Assembly (NCBI RefSeq): GCF_003367475.1
Contig: NZ_QRHA01000001.1
Span: 186,001-250,000 of the forward strand
DNA from: Alteromonas aestuariivivens
Lineage (GTDB): Bacteria; Pseudomonadota; Gammaproteobacteria; Enterobacterales; Alteromonadaceae
Direction of reading: 5' to 3'
Length of the DNA stretch: 64,000 nt
Position numbers and translations under genes: made by a program
In this document: positions 22,470 to 30,803 of the stretch, one piece after another
Layout of the letters: every line of letters begins with the position of its first letter
Numbering within the stretch: position 1 is the first letter of the stretch
Notes under the pieces: model-generated
The model's input: the letters and a program-made list of their open reading frames with translations, nothing else
Told to the model about the DNA's origin: nothing
The model's database searches: none

Positions 22470-24497
22470 ATGATATCGGATATCGGATATGCGTTAAACA
22501 GCCTGGCCTACCTGGTTTTGCTGCTGTTGCTGTTTACGGTCCGCAAGGCAGGGTTAGCGAAGTACCTGCTAATGATTGCCACCATGGCCACGCTGGCTTG
22601 GTCCCTGGGTTACATTTCTCTGCTGTTCGGCCCTGCTACGCCTAACTATATGCTGACAGCAGATGCGCTCCGTCAGCTGGTCTGGCTGCTGTTTATTGCC
22701 AGTTGTCTGCGTGACGATTTTACCGACCTGTGGCAGGTGCTGAGAAGACCAGCCACTCACTTCATTCTGCTACCAGCCCTGTTGGCTTTGATACTGCCGC
22801 AATTTATGTACTTTTCTGCCACCTGGCGCTATCTGTTTCAGACCGTTTTGGCGCTGGAGGGTTTGATCCTGCTGGAGGTGTTGTATCGTCAGTCCGGTGG
22901 CAATCAGTGGTCATATAAACCGCTGGTGGTTTATTTAGGGGCGACCCAACTTTTTGAGTTTGTGACTTACGCCAACGCGACCATGATCAACCAGATAGAG
23001 CCGGGTTACCTTGCTGCCAGAGGGTACATCTATGTGTTGCTGCTGCCTTTGCTGGTGGTGGCAATCCGGCGAATACGCCACTGGGGGGTTGATATTTTTA
23101 TCTCCCGCGATGTGGTACTGCACAGTTCGCTGCTGCTGGTTGCCGGCGCTTATCTGTTTATCATGGCGCTGATTGGGTATGTGATTAATTACCTGGGCGG
23201 AAACTGGGGTGCCACAGTGCAAATTGTATTGATGGTGTTGTCGTTGGCTTTGCTGGCTTCTCTGGTTCTTTCAAACAGCCTGAGAACCCGTATCAAGGTT
23301 TTTATTACCAAACATTTCTTTGCCAACCAGTACGACTACCGGGTTGAGTGGGTCAAGCTGACCCAGTCGCTTTCGGTTTCCACCAACTCAATGCCTGAAG
23401 TATACCGGGCCGCGCTTGACGGTATGTTGGGCGCAATCAGTTATAGCGAAGGCAAGCTGGTAAAAGTGGCCGGCCATGAACTGGATGTATTGGCGTCGGT
23501 GGGAAGCCGTGTGCTGACCGATGCTGAGCGAACCATTCTTAACCAGCTCAAGCCCTACTGCGGCCAAACCCAGTGGCTGATCGACATCGACGAATATCAG
23601 GTCAAACCCTTTAGCTACAACGGATTGCAACTGGACAGAGCGTTGTTGCAACAATGCGAGTTTCAGCTGGTGTTACCGGTTTTTAATGAAGGGCAGCTAT
23701 GGGGATTTGTCTGCATGCGGGCGCTCGAAGCTGAGGCGGTGTCACTGAACTGGGAAGTCAGGGATTACCTGACCGCGGTGACGGATCAGGTAACAACCTA
23801 TATATTGCATCACGAAGCGGCACAGACTGTGGCCGAAAATGCCCAGTTTGCGGCGTTCAGTCGTATGTCGGCATTTATCCTTCACGATCTTAAGAATGTC
23901 ATGGCCCAAATTGATCTGATACTCTGCAATGCCGAACAGCACAAAGACAACCCTGAGTTTATTGAAGATACCTTTGAAACGCTGCATTATACCAAGGCGC
24001 GGATGGACAAAATGCTTCGCCAGCTTACCGAGAAAAAGGTGCAGCAACCGGGGGCTAATTCGGCGCATTCTCTCAAACCCCTGATAGAAAAAGTGGTCGC
24101 TGAGAAGTGCCAGGCAATGCGGCCAGAACCGCAAATTTGTGGTCATGACGACCCTGAGGTAGTGGTTGATCCGGAAAAGTTCAGCAACGTGATATATCAC
24201 CTGGTCAGCAATGCTCAGCAGGCAACTGAAGATGAAGGTGATGTGCGCATAGAATTGCAGCTAGACCCGCTAACGAACCGTCAGCTGGTGCACATACGGG
24301 ACAGCGGCTGTGGCATGGATCAGGCGTTTATTCAGGAGCGCCTGTTCAAGCCCTTCGATACCACCAAAGGCAACGCAGGTATGGGGATTGGGGCTTACGA
24401 TGCCAGGCATTATATGGAGTCAATAGGTGGGCGCCTGAGTGTTGACAGTGAGCCCGGAAAAGGCAGCTGTTTCACTTTGGCGTTTCCACTGGATTAG
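22470..24497 (+). CDS. prsK: Sensor histidine kinase PrsK (PEP-CTERM/XrtA system type)
   Basis: A 675-residue membrane kinase. The first 280 residues hold about eight to ten hydrophobic helices. A GAF-like domain follows (about 300-440). The phospho-acceptor His is in FILHDLKNVMAQ near residue 472, and the ATPase domain shows HLVSNAQQA, RDSGCGMD and GMGIGAYDARHYMESIGGR. This architecture and the HDLKN box match PrsK, the kinase associated with exosortase A and exopolysaccharide loci. GAGGGA is 4 bases before ATG 22470, immediately after the heptamer array. prsR follows after 78 bases. Confidence 0.92.
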   Translation: MISDIGYALNSLAYLVLLLLLFTVRKAGLAKYLLMIATMATLAWSLGYISLLFGPATPNYMLTADALRQLVWLLFIASCLRDDFTDLWQVLRRPATHFILLPALLALILPQFMYFSATWRYLFQTVLALEGLILLEVLYRQSGGNQWSYKPLVVYLGATQLFEFVTYANATMINQIEPGYLAARGYIYVLLLPLLVVAIRRIRHWGVDIFISRDVVLHSSLLLVAGAYLFIMALIGYVINYLGGNWGATVQIVLMVLSLALLASLVLSNSLRTRIKVFITKHFFANQYDYRVEWVKLTQSLSVSTNSMPEVYRAALDGMLGAISYSEGKLVKVAGHELDVLASVGSRVLTDAERTILNQLKPYCGQTQWLIDIDEYQVKPFSYNGLQLDRALLQQCEFQLVLPVFNEGQLWGFVCMRALEAEAVSLNWEVRDYLTAVTDQVTTYILHHEAAQTVAENAQFAAFSRMSAFILHDLKNVMAQIDLILCNAEQHKDNPEFIEDTFETLHYTKARMDKMLRQLTEKKVQQPGANSAHSLKPLIEKVVAEKCQAMRPEPQICGHDDPEVVVDPEKFSNVIYHLVSNAQQATEDEGDVRIELQLDPLTNRQLVHIRDSGCGMDQAFIQERLFKPFDTTKGNAGMGIGAYDARHYMESIGGRLSVDSEPGKGSCFTLAFPLD

Positions 24498-24575
24498 CCA
24501 AAGGCACAGGCCTGAGGCAGGCTGGCGAAGATCAGTCAGTAGTTAAATAATATTAAAACAGGAAGTAGCAGGATT

Positions 24576-25934
24576 ATGGATACCATTCTTGTAGTTGATG
24601 ATGACTTAGGCATCCAAAAACAATTGAAGTGGAGCTTTACCAGTTATCAGGTGGTATTTGCCGACGATCGCGCTTCTGCGATCGCACAACTCCGCAGGCA
24701 TGAGCCCAAGGTGGTAACGCTCGATCTTGGCCTTCCTCCCGATCCGGCCAACGCATCGGAAGGCTTAAAAACCTTGCAGGAAATTCTGGCGCTGGCACCG
24801 CAGACAAAAGTGATTGTGGTAACCGGCAACAACGATCGGGTTAATGCGCTTAAGGCCATTGAATTGGGCGCTTACGATTTCTATCAGAAGCCCATAGACT
24901 CAGACACCATCAAATTGCTGGTACAGCGCGCATTCAATCTTGCCAATCTGGAACAGGAAAACCGCATTCTTGCCCGCACCAAGCCAGGTATGGGGAGTGT
25001 CATTGGCAATAGTGAAGCGATTCTGGCGGTTACCCGCCGGGCGGAAAAAATTGCCGGTACCGATATCAGCACCCTGTTACTGGGCGAGAGTGGCACCGGT
25101 AAAGAAGTATTTGCCCGCAGCATTCATGAGCACAGCCCCCGAAAAGACAGGCCGTTTGTAGCGATTAACTGTGCCTCCATTCCGGAAAATTTGCTCGAAA
25201 GCGAGTTGTTTGGTTATGAGAAGGGCGCCTTTACCGGTGCAAATAAGACCACCATCGGAAAAATTGAAACGGCGCAGGGCGGAACCCTGTTTCTGGATGA
25301 AATTGGTGATATGCCCATTGGCTTGCAGGCGAAGATGCTGCGCTTCCTGCAGGAGAGGGTGATTGAGCGGGTGGGCGGCCGAACGGAAATTCCGGTAGAC
25401 ATCCGGGTTATCTGTGCAACCCACCGGGATTTACAAAGTATGGTGGCCGAGGAGACATTCCGCGAAGATCTTTACTACCGGATCGGTGAAATCCCCATTA
25501 ATATCCCACCGTTAAGAGACCGTGATGAGGATATCATTCTCATTGCCAGAAACTACCTCAATCAGTACCGTGAAGATTTCAAAGCCAAAGCGAAGTCTTT
25601 TTCCGATGGTGCCATTCAGGCCATGCTGGCCTACCCCTGGCCGGGCAACATTCGTGAGTTGCAAAACAAACTGAAGTCCGCTGTTATCATGGCTGAGGGC
25701 AGCGTTGTGCAAGCCGAGGATCTGGGGCTGGAGTCCTATGAAAATACCCGCGCGCCAGAATCGCTTAATTTGCGGGAAGTACGCGAGCAGGCTGAGAGCA
25801 GGGCAATCAGACGGGCTTTTCAGACCGCAGAGAAAAACATGTCAAAAACCGCAGAATTGCTCGGCGTTACCCGCCCGACACTCTATTCACTGATCGACAA
25901 GTATCAACTGGAAGACGTTAAAACCGGCGCCTGA
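24576..25934 (+). CDS. prsR: Sigma-54-dependent response regulator PrsR
   Basis: A 452-residue NtrC-type activator. The receiver domain (residues 1-125) carries the acidic pair at 8-10, phosphoacceptor D50 in VVTLDLGLPP, and K in FYQKPID. The AAA+ domain has Walker A GESGTGKE (about 172-179), the sigma-54 contact loop GAFTGA, and Walker B GTLFLDEIGDM. The C-terminal Fis-type helix-turn-helix is AELLGVTRPTLYSLIDKYQ. It should be phosphorylated by PrsK and activate RpoN promoters, in known systems those for PEP-CTERM and exopolysaccharide genes. Its 3' end overlaps the minus-strand GGDEF gene by 31 bases. Confidence 0.94.
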   Translation: MDTILVVDDDLGIQKQLKWSFTSYQVVFADDRASAIAQLRRHEPKVVTLDLGLPPDPANASEGLKTLQEILALAPQTKVIVVTGNNDRVNALKAIELGAYDFYQKPIDSDTIKLLVQRAFNLANLEQENRILARTKPGMGSVIGNSEAILAVTRRAEKIAGTDISTLLLGESGTGKEVFARSIHEHSPRKDRPFVAINCASIPENLLESELFGYEKGAFTGANKTTIGKIETAQGGTLFLDEIGDMPIGLQAKMLRFLQERVIERVGGRTEIPVDIRVICATHRDLQSMVAEETFREDLYYRIGEIPINIPPLRDRDEDIILIARNYLNQYREDFKAKAKSFSDGAIQAMLAYPWPGNIRELQNKLKSAVIMAEGSVVQAEDLGLESYENTRAPESLNLREVREQAESRAIRRAFQTAEKNMSKTAELLGVTRPTLYSLIDKYQLEDVKTGA

Positions 25935-28081
25935 TTTTCATTATTTGCGTTTTCATCTGGCCAGTTAATACTGGCCAGATTGTTTAGCGAAGTTGCAATC
26001 TCCAGATGGGGAAGTGCAAACTTTTGCTCAATATGATGTGTGGCCCGTGTTGAACCTTGCTGCTCCATTAATCCTTCAATCACTCCTACCCAACAATTCT
26101 TGCCGGAATTTTTAGCTGCGTAGAGGCAGTAATCCATGATTGAAAATGTGCGTTGCCAGTCGAGCTTGTAAGGATGGTGACGGTACAGGGGCAGGCTGCA
26201 AAAACCAATGCTGCAACTGCCTTTTATCGACAGTTCGTCGGTGAGGTAAAAGGTTTCCTCTGTCACCGCGGCCCGGAACCGTTCTGCCAGCATACACATG
26301 TCATAACGGTTGGCATTGCGGCAGATCACCAGAAATTCTTCGCCTCCCCATCGGATCAGTAAATCGGTCTGGCGGAATACGTCGCGGATAACCTTGGTGA
26401 ACTGCATGAGAAAACGGTCACCAGCCAGATGTCCGTAATCATCGTTGATGCGCTTGAAATTGTCGATGTCGAGGACAAAACACAGCAGATCCTGATCTTG
26501 CGCATGAGTATGGGCGGTTTGCACGAAACTGTGCTGACAGCGCTGAATTTCGCCGGGCAGTTGGGCTTCCAGGTAGTGCCGGTTGTATAAGCCTGTGAGT
26601 GGATCGCGCAAGCTGACCTGTTCCAGGGTTTGGTAGGCGTCCTGTAACTGGCGGTTTTTTTCTTCCAGTTCCTGGGTACGGTATTTCACTTCCCTTTTAA
26701 GCACAATGTTTTGATGACGCTGTGTAAAGCGGCTCCACAGCAGAAAAATAAACAGCAGGATGGCCACAATGCTGCCGAGAAACAGCGTAGTTCGCAGGTT
26801 TTTCTGCTCAGCTTCAGCCAGTGCAATGGCCTTGTTACGCCGCAATGCGTCAATGGATTTGGCTTGCCGTTCGACTTCAAGTTCCGATTGCAACTGGGCC
26901 ATGCTCATTGCGCTGTTTTTATCTACAATCAGGGCTTCCAGACGGGTCTTTCTGGCTAAAGCTTCAAAGGCTTGGCGGAAATTCTGCTGGGCAGTAAATA
27001 CAGAGACCTTAACGGCCAGAAACTCAGTTTGACGACTAAGCTCGTCACGTTTTTCCGCTTCGATAAGGCCTTTGTCTGCGTGGTTCAGTGCCAGCTCAAG
27101 GTTGTTAAGCCGAAGGAAAGCTTCAGCGATTGCAAGATGGATATGCGTAAGTAATGAGGCAAAATTATGCTCTTTGGCGCGGCCAAGAGCTTCTGTGAGG
27201 TAAGTGAGCCCCAACTGCGTATTACCCTGTGCAAGCTCCACCTGCCCCAACGTAGTCAGAGCCCAATCGTGATCAAGGGGGGCATCGAGGGCTGAAAAGC
27301 GGGTGATTGCTTCGTTTAACTGAATGCGGGCCTGATCGTAGTGTTGCATGTTCAGGTATAACTCTCCCAGAACACTGTGGCTTTTCGCAATGCGTTGCTC
27401 AAGGGCAAGCTTGGTATTGATGGCAAGTGCGTCCTGCAGGTAGCTGAGCGCATCCTCATGTTGCCCCATCGCCAGGTAAATTTTGCCAATTTCCGTTAAG
27501 GCGTCCCCTACCAATGCCTGATCCTGGTTTTGGGCATCAGCAGAGAGCGCCCGCTGCAACGATTCAAGTGCCGGCCCAAACTGGCCCAGTTCCTTAAGCA
27601 CAATCCCAATTCGCAGTTGCAGTTTGGCAATGCCCTGTTGATCGTTTAAGGACTGATAGAGCGTCAACGCCCGGTAGAGGTAATCGAGAGCGTCACTGTA
27701 ACGTGACTGAATGCTGATGTTGGCACCCAGGTCTGCCAGCAGTACCGCAATTTGCTGTAACAGTTCCTGTTCGGTAAAGATTTCCAGTGAATTCTGAAAG
27801 GCTCTCTGGGCGAGGTCGTATTTGTTTTGCTGGGAACTGATATGCCCCAGTTCGTGAAAAGCGGCTGCGACATCAGCCGGGGAATGTTGGCTGCGGGAAC
27901 GCTCCAGCAGCAGCAGAGTGGCTGCTTCAGCCTGCTGCAGTTCACCGGCATCCCGCAAGGTCTGAATGTTTTCCAGCTGCTGCCTGGCTCGTTCGGAGGT
28001 CACATCGAGTATTGCGCCATCCTGGCCGTAACCGGTTGCGCTCAACAGGCAAAACATCAACACCAAGGGGCGTGCAGTCAT
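25904..28081 (-). CDS. TPR-repeat membrane diguanylate cyclase (GGDEF)
   Basis: A 725-residue protein that should make cyclic di-GMP. Order of parts: signal sequence (MTARPLVLMFCLLSATGYG), a periplasmic array of about eight TPR units (about 30-370, with repeated patterns such as GDALTEIGKIYLAMGQHEDALSY), a membrane helix TLFLGSIVAILLFIFLLWS near 425-447, a short coiled coil, and a GGDEF domain. The active site is WGGEEF. RQTD five residues before it is an intact RxxD inhibitory site, so product feedback is expected. The start is ATG 28081; a longer in-frame start at 28159 lacks a signal peptide. It is on the same strand as, and 236 bases after, the RHH gene. Confidence 0.93.
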   Translation of the reverse strand: MTARPLVLMFCLLSATGYGQDGAILDVTSERARQQLENIQTLRDAGELQQAEAATLLLLERSRSQHSPADVAAAFHELGHISSQQNKYDLAQRAFQNSLEIFTEQELLQQIAVLLADLGANISIQSRYSDALDYLYRALTLYQSLNDQQGIAKLQLRIGIVLKELGQFGPALESLQRALSADAQNQDQALVGDALTEIGKIYLAMGQHEDALSYLQDALAINTKLALEQRIAKSHSVLGELYLNMQHYDQARIQLNEAITRFSALDAPLDHDWALTTLGQVELAQGNTQLGLTYLTEALGRAKEHNFASLLTHIHLAIAEAFLRLNNLELALNHADKGLIEAEKRDELSRQTEFLAVKVSVFTAQQNFRQAFEALARKTRLEALIVDKNSAMSMAQLQSELEVERQAKSIDALRRNKAIALAEAEQKNLRTTLFLGSIVAILLFIFLLWSRFTQRHQNIVLKREVKYRTQELEEKNRQLQDAYQTLEQVSLRDPLTGLYNRHYLEAQLPGEIQRCQHSFVQTAHTHAQDQDLLCFVLDIDNFKRINDDYGHLAGDRFLMQFTKVIRDVFRQTDLLIRWGGEEFLVICRNANRYDMCMLAERFRAAVTEETFYLTDELSIKGSCSIGFCSLPLYRHHPYKLDWQRTFSIMDYCLYAAKNSGKNCWVGVIEGLMEQQGSTRATHHIEQKFALPHLEIATSLNNLASINWPDENANNENQAPVLTSSS

Positions 28082-28317
28082 AGCAATTCCATAACCGGAC
28101 AATACGTCCGGAAAACAGGCACCGAAACTACCTGCACATGCCATCGGTGCGGATTCCAACAGTCATTTCTGCCTATCCCGTGGGATGGGTAGTAGCTATT
28201 GTGTATAAAATGATCAAATAATCAAAGCGGTATTTACAACTCAAGGGTATTTAGCCGCACCAAAAGGTATTGAGAGGGCAAACCTGCGCAGTTGAGGTGA
28301 GAGCAAGGCGCCCCGGT

Positions 28318-28680
28318 TCAGGGCACCGTACTGCACAGAAGATTGGTGTGCTGTTTCTGTTTGGCTTGCTGGTCAGCCCAAATGCGGATCAGCCGTGAGC
28401 GGGGAATGCCAGTTTGTTCAGCCAGTTCAGCCAGTTTGTCAATGCAGGACTCGGTTAAGGTAAACGTGGCCCGACGCATAGGTTTGGTACCTTCCTGTTG
28501 ATTGAAAAATGGAATGATCTCTCCCAGTTCAAAATCGTCAGGCCAGGCGTGTGAGGCGGCTTTTTTTGCCGCTCCCTGATAGCCGCTGGCGTAGTGGATG
28601 GCATCTTCAATGAATTCATCCACGGATACTGCATTACGATTATCGGTAGGCCTGGACTTTCTGAGGTTGTACAAACTCAT
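28318..28680 (-). CDS. Ribbon-helix-helix-like DNA-binding partner of the ParA-type ATPase
   Basis: A 120-residue protein starting MSLYNLRKSRPTDNR at ATG 28680, behind a strong GGGGGAG 5-6 bases upstream. The C-terminal half, MRRATFTLTESCIDKLAELA then EQTGIPRSRLIRIWAD, has the strand-helix-helix pattern of CopG/Arc-type proteins. The N-terminal half is basic and then acidic and could hold a ParA-interaction segment. It overlaps the 3' end of the ATPase gene by 41 bases, so the pair is almost surely co-expressed. By analogy with plasmid ParG or ParB-like partners it may stimulate the ATPase and bind DNA or cargo; this is inference and the fold call is from sequence pattern only. Confidence 0.7.
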   Translation of the reverse strand: MSLYNLRKSRPTDNRNAVSVDEFIEDAIHYASGYQGAAKKAASHAWPDDFELGEIIPFFNQQEGTKPMRRATFTLTESCIDKLAELAEQTGIPRSRLIRIWADQQAKQKQHTNLLCSTVP

Positions 28681-29335
28681 TCGACTCCCCCTTACCTCTG
28701 GCGAGTAATTCTTCAATGATACTGCGGATCTCTATGGATGCCTTGCCATTGGGCTCACTTTCGATCACTGACATTCCTGATTCTTCGGAGTCGTCGTACA
28801 TATTACGGCTGTAGGTAACCGAATTGAGTACCGGAATGTCAAACGATCGGCAAACTTCTTTGGCTTCAATAATTCGACTGGACAAAGAAGGCAATGAAGG
28901 GCACTGGGTAATAACAAAGGCCGCATTCATCTTGGGGTTGACCATTTTACAGGTAGAGAGAATGTCTTCCATGTGTGGCACGGTCTTGAGATCCCGGCGT
29001 TTTGGGCGCAGGGGTATCAGTATGTGGTCGGCTACAGCCATCGAAGAACGCAGTGCCAGATTGTCCTGACCGCCGCAGTCTATGACTACATAACCATAGT
29101 GCTCGCGCAGACTCAGCAGTTCATTACGAATTTTTCCATACAGCTGAATGCAGTTAATGTCCGGCAATGCGTCGTTGGCTTTGCGTTCCTGGATCCAGTC
29201 TGAGGTGGTGCGTTGGGGATCACAATCCACCATCAATACGCTGTCGCTTTTTTCTCTTCGCAGATAAACAGCGATATTTTGTGCAAGACAGCTTTTACCG
29301 CTGCCGCCTTTTTCTCCACCAACCAAGATAATCAT
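28640..29335 (-). CDS. ParA/MinD-family partition-type ATPase
   Basis: A 231-residue ATPase beginning MIILVGGEKGGSGKSCLAQN. The deviant Walker A has the signature lysine K9 and P-loop K14. LMVDCDPQRTTSDW (D37, D39) is Walker A', and YVVIDCGGQD (D86) is Walker B-like. There is no N-terminal DNA-binding domain, so it is the short, ParA type Ib/MipZ-like form. ATG 29335 has GAGGA 8 bases upstream. It is not the chromosomal parA next to gidAB/parB; it pairs with an RHH-like gene and is preceded by a c-di-GMP riboswitch. The cargo is unknown: partition of an element, or placement of a surface structure, are both possible. Confidence 0.9.
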   Translation of the reverse strand: MIILVGGEKGGSGKSCLAQNIAVYLRREKSDSVLMVDCDPQRTTSDWIQERKANDALPDINCIQLYGKIRNELLSLREHYGYVVIDCGGQDNLALRSSMAVADHILIPLRPKRRDLKTVPHMEDILSTCKMVNPKMNAAFVITQCPSLPSLSSRIIEAKEVCRSFDIPVLNSVTYSRNMYDDSEESGMSVIESEPNGKASIEIRSIIEELLARGKGESNEFVQPQKVQAYR

Positions 29336-29445
29336 CGGTACAGTCCTCAATTGTTAGAATAGCGGTGTTGTTGTGCCGCCAGATAACTTGTTGTTGACTG
29401 AAAAAGTGAACCTTGATGTGACCTGCCAGGCAGGTTTCCTTTAGT

Positions 29446-29547
29446 TCGGTAGCCCCGCTGTCATATCGTTGGTATCTGTTTTGGGGGCCAGAACCTATAC
29501 GACACAGACCGGTGGCTTTGCGTCACGGACTTTCGAACCGCTTTGCC
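29446..29547 (-). promoter_or_regulatory. Class I cyclic-di-GMP riboswitch (GEMM-I)
   Basis: Read on the minus strand the leader has the GEMM-I core. It begins GGCAAAGCGGTTCGAAAG (GNRA-capped P2 hairpin, from 29547) and continues GACGCAAAGCCACCGG (tetraloop receptor side, about 29524-29509). It ends with AGCGGGGCTACCGA (29459-29446). The P3 stem pairs 29504-29497 with 29466-29459 (7 Watson-Crick pairs and one G-U). These match the Vibrio Vc2 sequence as remembered. The ATPase start is 111 bases further on. A 6-bp stem with a triloop (29434-29420) and a T5 run at 29405-29401 could form the expression platform; whether ligand switches expression on or off cannot be told. Confidence 0.9.
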
Positions 29548-29771
29548 TTTTTCAACTGTTCAGGGCAAACTTGCCCCCATCGTCCGGATCCGGTTCCGAA
29601 CGGGTATCGGAGCACTAACTAATTATTCCAACTGGAGTTATTTCCCCGATAGTGCCCATCCTAGCTACAGATTGTGATTGGCTCAGCATGACAACTTATA
29701 TGTAAGGATGAAATGCTATACCTTTGTATCAGGGCGTGTCGATCAACAGGCAATTAACCAAGGAGTGAAGC

Positions 29772-30803
29772 GTGCGAATAATAACCTTTTTGATGGTTTG
29801 GCTGGCTGGGGCCTTGTGCCAGATACAGGCTCAGCCGCTGGACCCATTACTGGACAAGTTTGCAGAGTTGTATACCAGTGAATGGGGGCAGGTGAAGCCG
29901 TGCCCGGAACCTGCCGCTCATCGTTTCCGTGTATGTTCTGACAAATTGCGCAATGAGGGTAATGCGCCTTTTATTCTTCATCATGGTGTGCCAACGGCCA
30001 ACACCGCCATTCTCATCCATGGCCTGAGTGATTCGCCGTTTTTTGTCAGCGGTATAGCCCAGGTACTCTACGAAAAAGGATTTACTGTTATCGCACCGCT
30101 GCTGCCTGGGCATGGATTAAAAGTTGCTGATGCAGACATGGAAGATAAACAGCTGGCAGAGCGCTGGCAGCAGCATGTTGATCAAGTTGTCGCGCTGACG
30201 GATGGGATTGATACCAAGGTGTTTCTGGGCGGCTTTTCCACAGGAGGAGCGCTGTCCGTTGAGCAGTATCTGGATTCCCCGGCTCAGATCGACGGTCTGA
30301 TGCTGTTTTCCGGAGCGCTGGCACTGACTGATAATGCGGAAAGTATGTCAAAATTCTGGGGCATAAAATGGGTAGCCAAACTGATTGATGGTCACTATGA
30401 GACTGACGGGCCAAACCCATATAAGTATCCCAGCGTGGCAGGCTTCGCCGGTCTCGAGCTGATGGATGTGATCAACCAAATCCGGGATCAGCTTGAGGCG
30501 GGTAAGCGTATTGAAGTGCCTTTGTTTGCCGCTCACTCACAGGCTGACAGAACCACCCCAATTCATGGCATTGAGGGTTTGCTGGAATTTACCCGTGGCA
30601 GTAATACGGTGTTTATCATCGATGAAAGCTATAACCTGTGCCATGCCGACCTGGTGGTCAGTGAAGCCATGATACGGGCGATGCAGTTTGATAAATCCAG
30701 GGTGAATGGAATTGAAGAATGCGCAGTGCCAAAGGCAAACCCTTTGTATCGGCAGATGACCATGATGCTGCAGAGTTTTGTGGATGAGCATCAGGGCCGA
30801 TAA
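29772..30803 (+). CDS. Exported alpha/beta hydrolase (serine hydrolase)
   Basis: A 343-residue protein with a signal peptide (MRIITFLMVWLAGALCQIQAQ) starting at GTG 29772; AAGGAG (29759-29764) is 7 bases upstream. The hydrolase core shows the oxyanion region LIHGLSDSPFF, nucleophile elbow GGFSTGG, acid HSQADRTTP and catalytic His in NLCHADLV. It resembles periplasmic lipase/carboxylesterase-like S33 relatives; the substrate is unknown. Its promoter must lie in 29560-29770, back to back with the riboswitch leader. Ends 8 bases before a terminator. Confidence 0.85.
   Translation: MRIITFLMVWLAGALCQIQAQPLDPLLDKFAELYTSEWGQVKPCPEPAAHRFRVCSDKLRNEGNAPFILHHGVPTANTAILIHGLSDSPFFVSGIAQVLYEKGFTVIAPLLPGHGLKVADADMEDKQLAERWQQHVDQVVALTDGIDTKVFLGGFSTGGALSVEQYLDSPAQIDGLMLFSGALALTDNAESMSKFWGIKWVAKLIDGHYETDGPNPYKYPSVAGFAGLELMDVINQIRDQLEAGKRIEVPLFAAHSQADRTTPIHGIEGLLEFTRGSNTVFIIDESYNLCHADLVVSEAMIRAMQFDKSRVNGIEECAVPKANPLYRQMTMMLQSFVDEHQGR

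Follow-up and report, generated by a model that had tools for sequence, protein, structure and literature searches.

A c-di-GMP-I riboswitch aptamer ahead of a chromosomal ParA-RHH operon in Alteromonas, and a PilZ gene at the same place in sister lineages

Cyclic di-GMP (c-di-GMP) is a biofilm signal that bears on the choice between swimming and settling, and the targets of its riboswitches show what such a signal controls. What, then, would a c-di-GMP riboswitch control in front of a partition-type ATPase gene? An initial annotation of the window (the whole 64-kb stretch of Alteromonas aestuariivivens DNA analysed here) had placed a GEMM-I riboswitch on the minus strand before a ParA-like gene with a ribbon-helix-helix (RHH) partner, and had named as checks a covariance search with RF01051 and an examination of parA homologues for a matching leader. 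Our main reading, to which we give a probability of roughly 0.6, is that a c-di-GMP-I riboswitch governs whether a chromosomal ParA-RHH operon is transcribed, most likely as an ON switch, the ligand response, the direction of the switch and the cargo of the pair being inferred. The features concerned, in the order of transcription, are the following.

29706..29722, minus strand: motif GGTAT-N8-ATCC upstream of the aptamer, seen in the alignment; candidate promoter part or RHH operator
29445..29557, minus strand: c-di-GMP-I (GEMM-I) riboswitch aptamer (RF01051, 68.8 bits, cutoff 35)
29401..29447, minus strand: predicted intrinsic terminator (leader alignment, folds and permutation test)
29341..29348, minus strand: Shine-Dalgarno-like GAGGACUG before parA; the 25 aligned leaders show something similar
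28640..29335, minus strand: parA, encoding a 231-aa ParA/MinD-type ATPase (AAA_31 2.8e-16, CbiA, MipZ)
28318..28680, minus strand: rhh, encoding a 120-aa RHH partner (RHH_3 2.8e-7, RHH_1 6.3e-6)
25904..28081, minus strand: TPR and GGDEF gene, a predicted diguanylate cyclase (GGDEF 1.3e-35), 236 nt after rhh

The presence of a c-di-GMP-I aptamer ahead of the ParA-RHH operon is confirmed. When the whole window was scanned against Rfam with cmscan, the RF01051 match at 29557-29445 (minus strand) reached 68.8 bits against a gathering score of 35 (E 2.2e-11), covered model positions 1-87 of 87 (i.e., the full length) and was the only RNA family match above cutoff in 64 kb; the same element was found again in a scan of 25500-30000 with permissive filters. 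The covariance search named by the initial annotation is therefore positive, and both the riboswitch class with its strand and the ParA-RHH operon behind it (AAA_31/CbiA/MipZ and RHH_3/RHH_1 matches) are borne out. The extent first given, 29446-29547, designates the same element but stops 10 nt short at the 5′ end, and the spacing of 111 bases to the ParA-like gene has to be corrected to 109 nt, from the aptamer 3′ end to the parA start codon (29335). The aptamer itself is a member of a known riboswitch class: like other RF01051 riboswitches it matches the model over its full length above the cutoff and is followed by a terminator-like hairpin, and it differs from them in its target, the ParA-RHH operon. 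Its core columns and GAAA loop (a GNRA tetraloop) are identical across an alignment of 21 aptamers, among them that of the window; the two G of AAGGCAAA, one of which presumably corresponds to position G20, are unchanged in all 21. Related cGAMP aptamers do exist, and a G20A mutant of GEMM-I binds cGAMP (PMC6274999), but the match here is to RF01051, both of these G are invariant, and one Ferrimonas locus is best matched by RF03167, another c-di-GMP-I family; that the aptamer senses a different cyclic dinucleotide, e.g., 3',3'-cGAMP, is thus very improbable.

The linkage of aptamer and parA was then followed over a genus sample of 59 genomes, scanned for RF01051 with Infernal's stricter filters. 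RF01051 occurs in 27 of these genomes and a close parA orthologue in 44 (a 45th match, 33% identical and with internal stops, was left out of the count). Directly before parA, at a distance of 72-143 nt, the aptamer was found in 25 of the 44 orthologues; a 26th locus (G056) is inferred, riboswitch and parA each lying at a contig end, and the other 18 parA-bearing genomes have no RF01051 match anywhere in their genome scans. A covariance model built on 21 of the 25 aptamers was searched against 979 kb of sequence covering 80 parA loci from named records and detected 29 aptamers, each directly upstream of parA and on its strand, plus a single further match of 18.8 bits. Note that the model recovers its own source sequences by construction, and that the 80 loci include many from the genus-sample genomes, filed under their public names. 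The second check of the initial annotation thus found the same leader before 26/44 genus orthologues and 29/80 named-record loci. The Ferrimonas, Paraglaciecola, L098 and L104 loci were left out of the model; tblastn detected at them no nearby relative of the hydrolase gene or of prsR, which flank the operon in the window (L107 being a short locus), and no close relative of the GGDEF gene. Since the linkage is kept in loci without these other neighbours, the conserved unit is the aptamer with parA and rhh. Rfam searches on 11 of the 80 loci matched RF01051 in L104 and L108 and the sister family RF03167 in L106, and gave no aptamer in the other eight. The L108 record, labelled Marinobacter nauticus, has several flanking gene families in common with the Ferrimonas loci and groups there in the ParA tree, and so its label may be wrong.

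Other c-di-GMP-I riboswitches were observed in the genus. The source genome has one more RF01051 match besides the parA leader, at contig C33 143645-143721 (L002, 57.2 bits), preceding a 228-aa protein that by eye has a signal-like start and a PEP-CTERM-like tail; the arrangement at L025, from a genome without a parA orthologue, looks similar. Further strong matches are L004 1501-1587 (81.6 bits), L005 1501-1587 (81.0 bits) and L029 1501-1589 (75.0 bits), followed on the same strand by frames of ~475 aa (L004 and L005) and ~300 aa (L029) with exported-protein-like starts.

Loci without the aptamer frequently carry something else at its place. PilZ proteins are common c-di-GMP sensors, and at 27 of the 80 named loci (Colwellia, Thalassotalea, Shewanella colwelliana, Pseudoalteromonas denitrificans and others) a small PilZ gene lies directly upstream of parA on the same strand, with no aptamer; the four PilZ proteins tested match PF07238 with E 1e-7 to 6e-9. 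A PilZ profile made from 25 of the 27 and searched in the 1000 nt before parA matched 112 of 270 loci (with loci of one genome counted more than once), in all 112 cases on the strand of parA and 2-169 nt away. The strict motif RxxxR...[DN]xSxxG, which we take to be the PilZ ligand motif, is present in 93 of these 112 proteins, and in 17 of the other 19 the S is replaced by A. Over the 979 kb of the named loci, the family gave 26 matches before parA and a 27th at L124, outside the position filter because this locus ends short, and no others. The named loci divide into 29 with aptamer, 27 with PilZ, 23 with neither and 1 too short; the 124 genes of the family sample into 9, 65, 49 and 1, respectively; and the 41 further genes of the order sample into 20 with PilZ and 21 with neither, with no aptamer, so that in the wider samples pooled PilZ precedes 85/165 genes. 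No locus of the named, family or order samples has both an aptamer and a PilZ gene. In the order, some genomes carry parA twice, once behind a PilZ gene and once with neither sensor, e.g., L178 and L283 (G663), L193 and L292 (G709), and similar pairs.

The ParA tree (109 rows) bears on how these arrangements are related, with the limits that its bootstrap had not converged and that several of its long branches are uncertain. All 30 aptamer rows fall in one supported clade of 58, alongside 28 rows with neither sensor, and the PilZ rows lie outside the aptamer clade; Ferrimonas ParA copies nest among Alteromonas, as expected of transfer. This layout suggests that sensors were gained only a few times and lost several times, rather than arising repeatedly by convergence. 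Control by c-di-GMP is also dispensable, since 18/44 genus orthologues have no aptamer and 49/124 family-sample genes have neither sensor. An Rfam search on 20 of the 70 loci with neither sensor in the family and order samples gave only two CsrB matches; these are CsrB/RsmB RNA genes downstream of parA (L185 2805-3101 and L188 2805-3099), from two genomes in one family of the order. That the partition-type ParA-RHH pair, fixed in Alteromonadales chromosomes, is a c-di-GMP output system with a lineage-specific sensor, either a cis RNA aptamer or a PilZ protein of the same operon, is a hypothesis that we regard as evenly balanced between true and false.

The leader between aptamer and parA indicates how the RNA could act. 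The hairpin is composed of a 5′ arm GAACU (29447-29443), an inner hairpin and a 3′ arm GGUUC (29412-29408), followed by AC and a U5 tract (29405-29401). The proposed P1, the closing stem of the aptamer, would pair AGUU (29557-29554) with AACU (29446-29443), and the terminator 5′ arm overlaps this 3′ strand; because the two share a strand, an ON switch is suggested. A simple terminator scan did not report the 29401-29447 hairpin. We submitted the pairings to a permutation test with the 14 leaders left of 25 once near-copies were removed (5000 permutations): terminator arms pair with a mean of -13.3 kcal/mol within loci against -9.1 between loci, a value reached in 0/5000 permutations, and P1 (sequence just upstream of the aptamer with the terminator 5′ arm) with -5.4 against -4.5 (215/5000). 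P1 may therefore be considered modestly supported, on sequence comparison alone, and it is weak (-2.0 kcal/mol or weaker) in 4 of the 25 loci (L016, L020, L030 and L031). CUUUUUC precedes parA in all nine distant leaders examined, most of which show by eye a hairpin beginning at or near the aptamer 3′ end (L104 is unclear); the minimum-energy folds of these leaders, with downstream sequence included, often show other pairings. In several folds CUUUUUC pairs with GAAAAAG at the aptamer 5′ end, which could be functionless since a U tract and an A tract would give such a pairing anyway. A translation switch was set aside: the pairing that it would use, between CAGUC in the leader and GGACUG at the ribosome site, was noticed by eye and is absent from the group with UUUUUUAUUACG.

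Forced folds bear on the direction of the switch. The window transcript up to the U tract, forced into the terminator stem, gives -56.4 kcal/mol, with the U tract also pairing with the A tract of the aptamer; the leader gives -53.5 with the aptamer core, -50.6 with core and terminator, and -47.7 with core and P1. The unconstrained fold (-57.8) adopts a third pairing with neither P1 nor the proposed terminator stem. As the terminator fold is better than core and P1, these energies fit an OFF default without ligand, either termination or another inactive fold; core and terminator together being also better than core and P1, only the energy of ligand binding could favour P1. That core and terminator can coexist on paper (-50.6 vs -47.7) equally leaves room for an OFF switch, or for translational action, in which the ligand favours the hairpin and parA-rhh is made at low c-di-GMP. 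Indeed, in Cd1 of C. difficile, a related aptamer, aptamer and terminator coexist and the switch is OFF (PMC9262584). Nevertheless, in the leaders examined the terminator 5′ arm begins inside or at the aptamer 3′ end, as in the pilM riboswitch of Geobacter metallireducens, an ON switch described in the same paper (PMC9262584), and a separate antiterminator strand was not noticed in these leaders, although no systematic search was made; we therefore hold the OFF or translational alternative to be unlikely, without dismissing it. In pilM, aptamer and terminator are mutually exclusive (PMC9262584), as we propose for the window; pilM differs in that it senses cGAMP and precedes a pilus gene, while the ligand and direction in the window are predicted only.

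According to the ON reading that we prefer, the RNA without ligand would fold the terminator, whose 5′ arm begins at the aptamer 3′ end; binding of c-di-GMP would stabilise P1, which uses the strand of this arm, and the polymerase would then read into parA-rhh. From the terminator/P1 layout, the conservation and the PilZ gene of sister lineages, we conclude that c-di-GMP likely sets the amount of the ParA system, its dependence on the ligand being inferred. A ParF-like ParA with its RHH partner would then form a nucleoid-based positioning or DNA-binding pair in cells with high c-di-GMP (surface, biofilm), with a cargo left open: a chromosomal site, another complex, or promoters only.

What, then, is the pair itself? 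The ATPase exceeds the Pfam cutoffs of AAA_31, CbiA and MipZ, that of ParA only barely, and its NF041546 match (140.6 bits) is under the cutoff of 180. It has a deviant Walker A motif (KGGSGKS, residues 9-15) and is 68-88% identical to 14 aligned relatives; its nearest solved structures are 5u1g (a ParA, E 2e-14), which we take to be pNOB8 ParA, and 4dzz (the plasmid protein ParF, E 4e-14). The rhh gene starts 41 bases within parA, and in the alignment its product shows a conserved N-terminal segment, a variable linker and a C-terminal ribbon-helix-helix. This partner lies downstream of parA in 79 of the 80 loci, the 80th ending at a contig end after the first residues, by a profile built from 55 of the same 80. 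The AlphaFold model of the RHH protein is weak (mean pLDDT 68.5), and its best Foldseek match, CopG (E 1.4), is not significant. PADLOC, run for a defence role, gave one weak Csx3 match for ParA. ParG is an RHH protein, and the ParF-ParG and small-ParA plasmid modules resemble the window pair in the ATPase match to ParF and in a small downstream RHH protein with an N-terminal tail; the window pair differs by its large chromosomal contig, its upstream c-di-GMP-type sensor and the absence of centromere repeats in 29400-29790, the only stretch searched (direct repeats of at least 8 nt with a 7-nt seed).

The parA gene is not plasmid-borne, given its place on a contig of 683 kb in a genome of 3.85 Mb. 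Its family occurs in 123 of the 246 family-sample genomes (124 genes), in 36 of the 197 order-sample genomes and, class-wide at E 1e-40, in only 4 of 369, the window's own included and one of them only 35% identical; this distribution indicates a concentration in Alteromonadales. Beyond this family, the closest relatives encountered are partition proteins of plasmids; they reach 57% identity, the highest being on Acinetobacter plasmids. As an example, the ParA of NZ_CP076808.1 is 57% identical over 86% of the query and has a 95-aa downstream partner with an N-terminal segment similar by eye and an RHH_3 match below cutoff; it differs in being plasmid-borne, in having repM, on the other strand, as the annotated upstream gene, and in lacking an annotated PilZ gene within the 5.6 kb inspected. 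A plasmid-derived leftover, kept by drift or by its own stability, for which riboswitch and PilZ are lineage accidents without regulatory weight, would account for this identity, for the adjoining repM and small partner of the Acinetobacter ParA that was examined, and for the many lineages without a sensor. It would not account for the strong conservation of ParA, for an aptamer core invariant in 21 sequences, or for two unrelated c-di-GMP-type sensors each kept at the same place over several genera, which leaves it quite improbable. We still read the pair as a partition-type module that became fixed in the chromosome and came under c-di-GMP control, its cargo not being shown.

The surroundings of the operon raise another possibility. 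Within 700 nt of parA, GGTAT-N6-10-AT[ACT]C is present at 18 of 29 loci with the riboswitch, at 13 of 15 Alteromonas loci that lack the aptamer, at 4 of 8 Bowmanella-type and other loci and at 1 of 27 PilZ loci, against 6.75% of random 700-nt windows; these frequencies are descriptive only, since the pattern was picked after the alignment had been viewed. Its distance to parA is 281-390 nt in the 18 riboswitch loci, and 148-157 nt in 12 of the 15 Alteromonas loci without aptamer, with 95 nt in one more; judging from sequence, the promoter region may have been retained where Alteromonas lacks the aptamer. Downstream, the TPR-GGDEF gene possibly belongs to the parA operon, co-transcription not being shown, and if co-transcribed it might close a c-di-GMP loop; 33 of the 80 loci have a relative (at least 36% identity) behind rhh in the same orientation. 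Beside the operon lie prsK (histidine kinase) and prsR (sigma-54 regulator) of the PEP-CTERM/XrtA system (22470-25934, plus strand), and the other flank is a divergent hydrolase gene; near parA, prsR is absent in most other genera of the 80 loci. An exosortase match lies ~180 kb off on the same contig as parA; a link between exosortase and riboswitch was rejected, since an EpsH-type exosortase is found in 59/59 genomes of the genus and discriminates nothing.

RHH proteins are often repressors. The pair could be a regulator in which RHH binds promoters and ParA tunes RHH, comparable in role to FleN with FleQ, a possibility favoured also by the conserved motif upstream of the aptamer, by the lack of centromere-like direct repeats in 29400-29790 and by the nearby genes of PrsK, PrsR and the GGDEF protein. 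We nonetheless find it somewhat unlikely, since ParA keeps its deviant Walker A and its identity across the 14 relatives, its nearest solved relatives are partition ATPases, and the pair persists without PrsR and GGDEF neighbours; none of these observations excludes regulation, and the positioning system that we prefer remains a reading. A link between c-di-GMP, an RHH DNA-binding protein and chromosome organisation has a precedent in CdbA of Myxococcus xanthus, which is an RHH protein, binds c-di-GMP and has a role in organising the nucleoid (PMC7156744). By analogy, CdbA shows that such a link is possible, but its design is different: it binds c-di-GMP itself, whereas in the window control is proposed to pass through an RNA or a separate PilZ gene.

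Among open-access papers only, which makes the absence weak, we found no study of a ParA operon as target of a c-di-GMP-I riboswitch, and no description of a PilZ-ParA operon or of an RNA-or-PilZ sensor before one effector. That different genera place either an RNA sensor or a PilZ gene before one and the same ParA-RHH pair points to a need for c-di-GMP to govern what this pair does. Comparing the two arrangements would naturally set a sensor at the transcript level against one at the protein level, both acting on one effector, and the system allows a direct test of c-di-GMP acting on the positioning of DNA or of a complex, beyond motility and matrix. If the hypothesis of a c-di-GMP output system with a lineage-specific sensor is true, c-di-GMP would control intracellular positioning or chromosome organisation in these bacteria.
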